Shown in pieces: positions 29,764 through 31,215 of a stretch of 64,000 nt of DNA. The DNA lies in NCBI RefSeq assembly GCF_005145045.1, contig NZ_CP039691.1, forward strand, positions 124,001 to 188,000, written 5' to 3'. A program made the position numbers and the translations under genes. The notes under the pieces are model-generated. The model worked only from the letters and a program-made list of their open reading frames with translations. It made no database searches and was not told the DNA's origin. The first letter of the stretch is position 1. Every line of letters starts with the position of its first letter. This DNA is from Agrobacterium larrymoorei. Its GTDB lineage: Bacteria; Pseudomonadota; Alphaproteobacteria; Rhizobiales; Rhizobiaceae.

Positions 29764-30870
29764 TTAGATTTCCGCACCCTGCGCAGCTTCCACCTCACGG
29801 CCTTTTTCCTGCCGATTGTAGCGGATGGAAGACCAGAGCGAGATGCCGATGAGTGCCGCACCGCCAAGACCGGTAATCACTTCCGGAATATGGATAAGGC
29901 TCTGCATGTACATGATGACCGACAGGATGAGGATGGCGTAGAACGCGCCGTGCTCAAGGTAGCGGTATTCTGCAAGCGTACCCTTTTCCACCAGCATGAT
30001 GGTCATGGAGCGGACATACATCGCGCCGATGCCGAGACCGATTGCGATGATGAACAGGTTCGACGTCAGCGCGAAGGCGCCGATCACGCCATCGAAAGAG
30101 AAGCTGGCATCGAGCACTTCGAGGTACAGAAACGCGCCGAAGCCGCCCTTTGCAGCACCTTCCAGCATCTGCTGGCTGCGATCGAGAACGCCGCCCAGCA
30201 CCTCGACCAGAAGGAAGGTCAAGAGACCCCAGATCGCGGAGGTGAAGAAAACGTTTGCTGCCTCCGGGCCGAGATCCGGATTGGTGCTGTTGCTGATGAT
30301 GCGCGTGAAGATCAGCATAATGATGAGAACGAAAGCGATTTCGATGCCCTTGATGGACGAATAGGTCGCGATCTTTTCTTCGAACCAGCGAACCCAGTGC
30401 ACATCCTTCTCATGATCGAAAAAGAAGCTGAGGCCCACCATCATCAGGAAGGTGCCGCCGAAGGCAGCAATCGGCAGATGCGCGTCATGCATGATCTGTG
30501 CGTAACGATCCGGCTCGGTTGCGGCCATGACCATGGCTGTCCACGGGCCGACATTGGCTGCAACGACTACAATGAGCAGCGGGAAGACGATACGCATGCC
30601 GAAGACGGCGATCAGAATACCCCAGGTCAGGAAGCGGTGCTGCCATTCCGGGGTCATGTCTTTGAGCTTGTTGGCGTTGACGATGGCGTTATCGAAGGAA
30701 AGCGAGATTTCCAGAACCGCCAGAACCGCGCAAATGAAGAAGATCGTGGCCGTACCGCTGACGGTGCCCGTCATTTCCCAGCCGAGCCATCCGCCCAAAA
30801 TAAGGCCGACGACCGTGACGATGAAGGCCCATTTGAAATAGGCGAGGGTCGAGTGTGTGGTAGAGGTCAT
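29764..30870 (-). CDS. DUF475/TerC-like integral membrane protein
   Basis: Polytopic membrane protein of 368 residues with about eight to nine helices and the TerC/DUF475 acidic motif in an early helix (EISLSFDNAIVNANKLKDM), repeated later as EVLDASFSFDGVIGAFALTSN. TerC/Alx-type proteins export manganese or relieve metal stress; the same function here is inference. The start codon overlaps the stop of an upstream 27-codon reading frame (TGATG) and its GGGGGG ribosome site lies inside that frame. The gene therefore sits behind a structured leader that also encodes a small peptide. Confidence 0.9.
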   Translation of the reverse strand: MTSTTHSTLAYFKWAFIVTVVGLILGGWLGWEMTGTVSGTATIFFICAVLAVLEISLSFDNAIVNANKLKDMTPEWQHRFLTWGILIAVFGMRIVFPLLIVVVAANVGPWTAMVMAATEPDRYAQIMHDAHLPIAAFGGTFLMMVGLSFFFDHEKDVHWVRWFEEKIATYSSIKGIEIAFVLIIMLIFTRIISNSTNPDLGPEAANVFFTSAIWGLLTFLLVEVLGGVLDRSQQMLEGAAKGGFGAFLYLEVLDASFSFDGVIGAFALTSNLFIIAIGLGIGAMYVRSMTIMLVEKGTLAEYRYLEHGAFYAILILSVIMYMQSLIHIPEVITGLGGAALIGISLWSSIRYNRQEKGREVEAAQGAEI

Positions 30871-30953
30871 CAGAACGCCCCCCGGATAAAGGAAGAGCGA
30901 GACATATGCATGGCGTCAGACGCCAGCATGTGATGCTTGGTCAGATTGTTCAT
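30870..30953 (-). CDS. Putative 27-residue leader peptide upstream of DUF475 gene
   Basis: Small reading frame starting at ATG 30953 with GGCGGAT nine bases before it. The peptide begins MNNLTKHHMLASDAMHM and ends SRSSFIRGAF. It has four Met and three His, clustered as HHM and MHM. Its TGA stop shares the A with the ATG of the DUF475 gene, so translation of the two would be coupled. No homology is claimed. Support is its position, ribosome site and exact stop-start overlap. Confidence 0.55.
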   Translation of the reverse strand: MNNLTKHHMLASDAMHMSRSSFIRGAF

Positions 30954-30988
30954 GGGTGTTAATCCGCCGGCGTAACAAGCAGGCGGTA

Positions 30989-31063
30989 CCGACATCGCGA
31001 GAGCGCCGTAAAACTCTCGCCAGAGGGGCCCGGCACCAAAGTTCTGTCCCTACCCGATGTCAG
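30989..31063 (-). ncRNA. Structured 5' leader (candidate cis-regulatory RNA) of DUF475 gene
   Basis: On the minus strand a closing helix pairs GACATCG (31061-31055) with CGATGTC (30997-30991). Inside are a hairpin GCGAGAG (31020-31014)/CTCTCGC (31003-30997) with a 10-base loop and a second G/C-rich element around GGTGCCGGGCCCC. A promoter at 31079-31107 would start transcription just before it. The multi-helix unit directly upstream of a TerC-like gene suggests a metal-sensing or similar leader. It does not show the GGGGAGUA of the yybP-ykoY class. It may correspond to the reported terC RNA motif, which I cannot verify here. Confidence 0.5.
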
Positions 31064-31078
31064 GGGCGGGAATGTCCT

Positions 31079-31107
31079 TTAGTCTCTCAACTTCGTGATT
31101 TCGTCAA
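31079..31107 (-). promoter_or_regulatory. Sigma-70-like promoter for the DUF475 transcript
   Basis: On the minus strand, TTGACG at 31107-31102 and GACTAA at 31084-31079 are separated by 17 bases. Transcription would start near 31072, immediately before the structured leader. Confidence 0.5.
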
Positions 31108-31215
31108 GGCGAAAGTTGTTTTTTACTGCATTGACGGCCAAAAACCGTCAAACTTAATGCTGTTTCGATTATCTCAGGTTGTGATTGGCTTAATCGTTTC
31201 CTGATCGATCAGGTG

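Follow-up and report, generated by a model that had tools for sequence, protein, structure and literature searches.

What kind of leader precedes the DUF475 gene of Agrobacterium larrymoorei, and how might it control that gene? The gene (29764..30870, on the minus strand, as are all features below unless stated otherwise) lies in a 64,000-nucleotide stretch of DNA, here called the window, and encodes a TerC-family membrane protein of 368 amino acids, recognized by Pfam and NCBIfam profiles (PF04332, 352.5 bits; PF03741, 74.4 bits; NF010616, 684 bits). A sequence search of the PDB found no match for it. An earlier note had described, upstream of the gene, a promoter-like pair of boxes, several RNA helices and a small frame whose stop overlaps the DUF475 start in TGATG, and every one of these elements is present in the sequence. 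The paired boxes (31079..31108) read CTTGAC (31108-31103) and AGACTA(A) (about 31085-31079). Antisense to the gene runs an open frame of 347 codons (window 29890-30933, plus strand), probably an effect of codon usage.

The leader RNA and its core structure

A covariance-model search places a match to the terC RNA family of Rfam (RF03067) at 30980..31041 (31041-30980 in reading direction), and the DUF475 gene starts 110 nt downstream of it. The match covers the complete model (positions 1-59) and scores 64.7 bits against a gathering threshold of 39.9, with an E-value of 5.5e-9 for the entire window and 3.1e-11 for the leader alone; it is the sole Rfam match in the leader at E-values up to 5. 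The leader RNA is almost certainly a terC RNA, a motif whose original description is reportedly that of Weinberg and others in 2017. The earlier note had raised the terC motif as a possibility, which the covariance search it suggested bears out, and it was right in calling the yybP-ykoY signature absent: the model of that riboswitch (RF00080) has no match in the leader at E-values up to 5 or, in a covariance-model search, anywhere in the A. larrymoorei genome, and a yybP-ykoY identity was rejected on these grounds.

P1 (30985..31037) pairs GGTGCCGG (31037-31030) with TCGGTACC (30992-30985), and the P2 hairpin (30997..31020) pairs GCGAGAG (31020-31014) with CTCTCGC (31003-30997); both are given by the Rfam alignment and by covariation. 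Across 299 copies of the RNA, the compensatory substitutions in relatives that the earlier note had asked for are present in both helices, in many pair types: pair 5 of P2 is paired in 268 copies (119 expected from column composition) and pair 3 of P1 in 279 (160 expected), and pair 2 of P1 is often a G-A or A-A mismatch. The window copy has the invariant core, CGGGCCCCUCUG and GAUGUCG; the 299 copies were collected with a pattern on this core, and its invariance among them is partly built in.

The inner hairpin GCGAGAG/CTCTCGC of the earlier note is P2 of the family, whereas its closing helix GACATCG/CGATGTC is not P1. The latter would join GACATCG (31061-31055) to CGATGTC (30997-30991); it crosses P1 and uses the family-constant core strand (GATGTC, 30991..30996), and GACATC, on its 5' side, belongs to a hairpin upstream of P1, named P0. 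As a closing stem of the family it is not supported. Because this helix and P2 both need C30997, at most six of its seven pairs can coexist with P2. The GACATC/GATGTC pairing is at most an alternative, or a pseudoknot with the loop of the upstream hairpin.

The single-sequence fold of the leader is ordinary (z -1.35, a stability equalled or surpassed by 19 of 200 shuffles). Folding energy was set aside as evidence, and the case for the RNA thus rests on comparison. By eye, the P2 loop ACGGCG (31013-31004) could pair with CGCCG in the downstream helix P3 (30971-30964), and Rhodobacteraceae DUF475 loci have GGCGG loops with CCGCC downstream.

Features added to the RNA at DUF475 loci

P0 (31047..31071), which is not part of the Rfam model, has the stem TCCC.GCCC / GGGT.GGGA and the loop CTGACATC (31063-31056), in which GACATC (31061-31056) is complementary to the invariant core GATGTC. 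In the window copy eight pairs enclose the loop (p 0.013 against shuffled flanks). Within a 54-nt upstream window, GACATC is found at 18 of 36 DUF475 loci, compared with 1 of 263 other copies; at the other 18 DUF475 loci it was not found in that 54-nt window. The tests of P0 were devised after the pattern had been seen; in them the stem beats shuffled flanks at an uncorrected p<0.05 in 15 of the 18 loci (exceptions L013, L019 and L021). These loci span at least five genus labels (g1, g4, g12, g339 and g343) together with named Rhizobium and Ensifer records (L155 and L157), and their stems vary between genera: CTGCCC/GGGCAG (L005), GTCCGCAGCC/GGCTGCGGAC (L267) and GTTGCGGC/GCCGCAGC (L271). In one alignment (A1) the invariance of GACATC carries no weight, the 17 sequences having been selected for it. 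Ensemble folds of the 18 loci put the GACATC–core pairing above 0.5 in five, P1 above 0.5 in seven and neither in six; for the segment of the window leader the values are 0.29 and 0.60, respectively. The P0 loop may contact the core, and since GATGTC never varies, covariation is silent on whether it would do so by docking or as a switch strand.

An upstream complement of the core was also considered as a family-wide feature and rejected: GACATC is enriched overall (20 of 247 against 6.0 expected), because of the DUF475 group. One DUF475 group without GACATC (L024-L032 and L063) has CAGAGG, complementary to the core CCTCTG, directly before P1; upstream of P1 this motif has no family-wide enrichment (9 of 247 against 7.6 expected).

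P3 (30964..30986) pairs CCGCC.GC (30986-30979) with GC.GGCGG (30971-30964). It shares two outer bases of P1 and takes in the ribosome-site-like GGCGGA of the small frame (30963..30968), which was read in the sequence and is kept in relatives. Withholding the P1 strand from folding, as if it were already paired, raises the mean accessibility of the ribosome site from 0.15 to 0.36 in 26 DUF475 leaders and from 0.33 to 0.39 in shuffled ones. The shuffled leaders also pair at the ribosome site, in 19 of 26 on average, so that G+C content explains part of the masking. DUF4112 loci behave like DUF475 loci (0.16 to 0.36, with masking in 6 of 9), and P3-type masking is found at 22 of 91 Alx-type loci and 1 of 8 loci of the 103-residue orphan discussed below; as a general mechanism of the family it was rejected, being clear only in DUF475 and DUF4112 loci. 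Relative to its own shuffles, the region after P1 is more strongly folded (mean z -0.85; 22 of 100 below -2) than a control region upstream (mean z -0.22; 8 of 100). A universal anti-P1 strand downstream, a candidate prompted by Rhodobacterales leaders, was rejected as well for lack of enrichment (39 of 298, with 29.3 expected); such a partner stood out in the TerB1 group only (7 of 9 against 2.0 expected).

The leader frame of 27 codons (30870..30953; translation MNNLTKHHMLASDAMHMSRSSFIRGAF, then a stop) has base 30870 in common with the DUF475 ATG. At 28 of 36 distinct DUF475 loci, GGCGG is followed by an ATG 4-12 nt on, and at 27 of these 28 the end of the frame overlaps the first codon of DUF475: 26 loci share 1 or 4 nt (by script) and L211 has an ATGA seen by eye; at L020 the stop lies 2 nt ahead of that start. 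Frame and overlap, whose loss in close relatives the earlier note had named as a count against its reading, are thus kept. Eight DUF475 loci have no frame of this type (L136, L171, L178, L217, L220, L016, L284 and L286); in L136, L171, L217 and L220, all from Rhodobacteraceae, DUF475 comes directly after the terC RNA, and L016 has, by eye, a similar frame at another spacing.

Moderate evidence from sequence comparison suggests that the leader frame is coding: in two groups of 11 and 10 sequences dN/dS is 0.33 and 0.46, respectively, and variable sites are only slightly more frequent at third positions (16 against 11 and 10; 11 against 6 and 9). The initial codons are similar across genera (M-K/N-x-L-T/N-M/V) and the remainder is variable, as in the relatives' peptides MKNLTMHSMRALCAMPAPRF, MKNLNVLRARAFCVRPD and MKKLTMPCQHARCGMPRF. 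The frame is somewhat more likely than not to be translationally coupled to DUF475. By eye, a small hairpin, TGGCGT/ACGCCA, lies within the frame (window 30925-30911), with other hairpins at that spot in relatives (GCATGCC/GGCATGC in L163 and L211); hairpins within the frame may explain the similar HA..GM residues. A record titled Bacillus subtilis SK6B4 (L213) has a Rhizobiaceae-type terC RNA, leader frame and DUF475, and is probably a mislabelled or mixed assembly.

Promoter boxes, distribution and downstream genes

Of 299 copies, 110 have CTTGAA (85 copies) or CTTGAC (25 copies) at a distance of 37-54 nt upstream of the core, compared with 7 of 1,484 shifted windows, a control that covers this exact class. 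The remaining copies comprise 91 with a near match, for which there is no such control, 27 with a distal box only and 71 with none. Behind CTTGAA/CTTGAC, at +22 to +28, stands a CC(A/C)(A/T)(A/T)TT-like box. The family box fits RpoH1 promoters, given as CTTGAA-N15-16-CCTATAT in an excerpt of PMC4843759, in which case the mRNA would start at P1; a heat-shock promoter form of R. etli appears as cTTGaa-N16-CgATaT in an excerpt of PMC4167512. With the box at a fixed distance, the mRNA would in these 110 copies begin with the RNA itself. In the window copy an RpoH-type box is absent at the family position, 37-54 nt before the core; CTTGAC stands 76 nt before the core, with AGACTAA, and at 75-89 nt in other Rhizobiaceae DUF475 loci. 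Altogether 26 of the 36 DUF475 loci have the distal box only. The CTTGAC/AGACTA(A) pair is a putative promoter. The other two copies in A. larrymoorei, L002 and L003, have CTTGAA 47 nt before the core.

RF03067 matches occur in 57 of 101 relatives, in 52 of 385 genomes of a class sample and in 53 of 349 genomes of a phylum sample, the last two samples overlapping. Outside the class, phylum-sample matches fall in one family only (f226, six genomes). At least 119 stretches in named records match; among the matches listed these are mostly from Alphaproteobacteria, and also from Pseudomonas and Arenimonas. A match to the core pattern in an Oscillospiraceae metagenome-assembled genome (L145), with no TerC-type gene and seemingly inside coding sequence, is likely a chance match. 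The A. larrymoorei genome has three terC RNA copies and five TerC-family matches, two of which adjoin terC RNAs. Besides the window copy, L003 precedes an Alx-type TerC gene (TIGR03718) and L002 precedes an orphan of 103 amino acids (at 1158-1469), which has no Pfam or NCBIfam match; in related species the orphan frame is followed by ExoD (L058 and L065).

Copies were collected by Rfam matches together with the core pattern (13 of 326 loci were dropped for want of the pattern), and they are not independent, since many come from species of a single genus and the class and phylum samples share members. A downstream family was assigned to 288 of 302 distinct copies and none to 14, the family being that of the best-scoring phmmer frame starting within 700 nt, which is not always the first frame; representatives of the partner families were verified by Pfam or NCBIfam. 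A TerC-type gene lies close downstream of 191 of the 302 copies (127 Alx-like, 36 DUF475 and 28 YjbE-like). The non-TerC partners are TerB (13), lipid kinase (10), DUF465-like (10, of whose low-scoring assignments Pfam confirms L138 only), orphan-103 (10), DUF4112 (9), Tim44 (9), zinc ribbon (7), Bax1-I (5), beta carbonic anhydrase (4), iota-like carbonic anhydrase relatives (4, with the matches of L140 and L231 significant but under the curated cut-off of 350 bits), Na/Ca exchanger (3), ExoD (3), NhaA (2), DUF2076 (2) and, once each, MnhE, M48, YdjM, DUF533, amphi-Trp and amidoligase. The small frames of L262 and L120, related to the DUF465-like ones, have no Pfam match. Many of the non-TerC first genes have a TerC-type gene further on, among them lipid kinase, TerB, carbonic anhydrase (L244) and NhaA (L132). 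At L062, L084, L093 and L227 two terC RNAs on opposite strands stand head to head, with about 100-160 nt between them; the genes beyond the pair at L084 and at L093 are DUF4112 on one flank and an Alx-type TerC gene on the other.

Five unrelated families of carbonic anhydrases or cation antiporters account for the partners of 14 of the 97 assigned non-TerC copies, in a test of gene theme devised after the pattern had been seen. Counted by broad lineage the cases are fewer, with three for the exchangers, two for beta carbonic anhydrase and one each for NhaA, the iota-like relatives and MnhE. Pro_CA, NhaA and Na_Ca_ex are each represented by a single gene in A. larrymoorei, and none of the three adjoins a terC RNA, so that such neighbours are not a common background.

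Proposed mechanism and signal

We propose that the terC RNA regulates in cis, from a position at or close to the 5' end of the mRNA, and that it very probably controls DUF475. Its sensing domain would consist of P1, P2 and the invariant internal loop (GCCCCUCUG and GAUG). P3, having bases in common with outer P1, would mask the ribosome site of the 27-codon frame; full formation of P1 would, in the direction of switching that we envisage, free this site and allow the leader frame to be translated, and ribosomes terminating at TGATG may then re-start on DUF475, making the control translational. P0 would present GACAUC to the core GAUGUC, either to make a loop–receptor contact or to compete with P1 as a switch strand. 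Across the family, the RNA would belong to an envelope- and heat-shock-sigma-linked regulon that is centred on TerC and includes genes of pH and cation balance. Taken as a whole, this reading (a 5'-terminal cis-regulatory RNA whose output is translational, relayed by a coupled leader peptide, and which belongs to a regulon of envelope and alkaline/ion stress) is the one towards which we lean slightly.

Given a regulon that includes genes of pH and cation balance, with its mix of TerC, ExoD, antiporters and carbonic anhydrases, the most likely signal would be alkaline pH or an accompanying ion change, an assignment that we make tentatively. Excerpts of two papers bear on it: exoD mutants are described as alkali-sensitive (PMC1403797), and the alx riboswitch as responding to alkaline pH and manganese (PMC9603457). 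Against a pH signal, most of the non-TerC partner families (TerB, DUF4112, DUF465, Tim44, the lipid kinase and the zinc ribbon) have no known link to pH.

The same gene list bears on a rather unlikely alternative, in which the terC RNA is a riboswitch for manganese or another divalent metal, an alphaproteobacterial counterpart of yybP-ykoY outside that family. The 191 of 302 copies with a TerC-type gene downstream, one of them matching TIGR03718 (R_switched_Alx), speak for it, as do the control of TerC-type genes elsewhere by manganese riboswitches (excerpts of PMC10898510 and PMC9603457), the lack of an RF00080 match in the A. larrymoorei genome and the three copies that precede Na_Ca_ex exchangers. 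However, carbonic anhydrases, NhaA, ExoD, Bax1-I, M48, the lipid kinase and DUF4112 are not obvious manganese genes, and the terC RNA is unlike RF00080 in model and size. It is less likely still that the RNA senses no ligand and is a protein-binding or stabilizing 5' element of heat-shock-sigma mRNAs. This would suit the fixed distance of the RpoH-like box in 110 of 299 copies, which would make the RNA the extreme 5' end there, partners such as M48, Bax1-I, DUF533 and TerB, and output structures that differ between families; yet the Rhizobiaceae DUF475 loci retain the RNA unchanged behind another box, placed further upstream (the only one at 26 of 36 loci), and the internal loop is strictly conserved, as is typical of ligand sites.

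The earlier note had also considered the Met/His-rich peptide as a possible metal binder or sensor, and a version of this in which the 27-residue peptide is the metal-binding sensor and the RNA its partner appears highly improbable. The window copy does have HHM and MHM, but these clusters are confined to its close kin; most relatives are without them although frame and overlap remain, and most terC copies, including Rhodobacteraceae L136, L171, L217 and L220, were seen without the frame. As HHM and MHM are not conserved in relatives, a metal-binding leader peptide is unsupported and was rejected.

Our preferred reading, a coupled cis-regulatory RNA, can be set against three known systems. With the terC RNA of RF03067 the window copy shares the whole-model match, P1, P2, the invariant internal loop and a TerC-family gene downstream; it adds P0 with a core-complementary loop, P3 over the ribosome site and the coupled leader frame, all three of which the 59-position model lacks. 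The yybP-ykoY manganese riboswitch (RF00080; alx and mntP) similarly lies upstream of TerC-family genes but, as noted above, matches neither the leader nor the genome in sequence or structure. The locus resembles systems of leader peptides and translational coupling in its short frame with a ribosome site and in the stop that overlaps the next start; it differs from leader-peptide systems in that the peptides vary widely in sequence with no run of regulatory codons seen, and coupling here is a prediction. The RNA family is thus already known, and P0 with the coupled leader frame is a new variant of it; for P0, the leader frame and the other variant features no publication was found in a search whose scope did not extend to the original motif description.

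The terC RNA is a curated family for which the literature searched gives neither function nor ligand, and the genes downstream supply a testable theme: two unrelated carbonic anhydrase families, three unrelated antiporter families, and ExoD beside TerC. The heat-shock-sigma-like box at a fixed distance points to the start of the RNA and to the response in which it takes part. More speculatively, and in our view distinctly unlikely in its full form, the terC RNA could sense alkaline pH directly, by proton release in its C-rich internal loop, or a following ion such as bicarbonate, and so add a check after transcription to an envelope regulon, linked to the heat-shock sigma factor, of Alphaproteobacteria and some Pseudomonas that takes in TerC proteins and the carbonic anhydrase and antiporter families just named, the Rhizobiaceae having gained a core-docking P0 loop and a relaying leader peptide. 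If true, this direct sensing of alkaline pH or bicarbonate by an RNA would make it a sensor of a rare kind. The DUF475 variant of Rhizobiaceae, with its P0 loop, P1/P3 and coupled peptide, offers a compact system whose proposed steps can be tested by point mutation.
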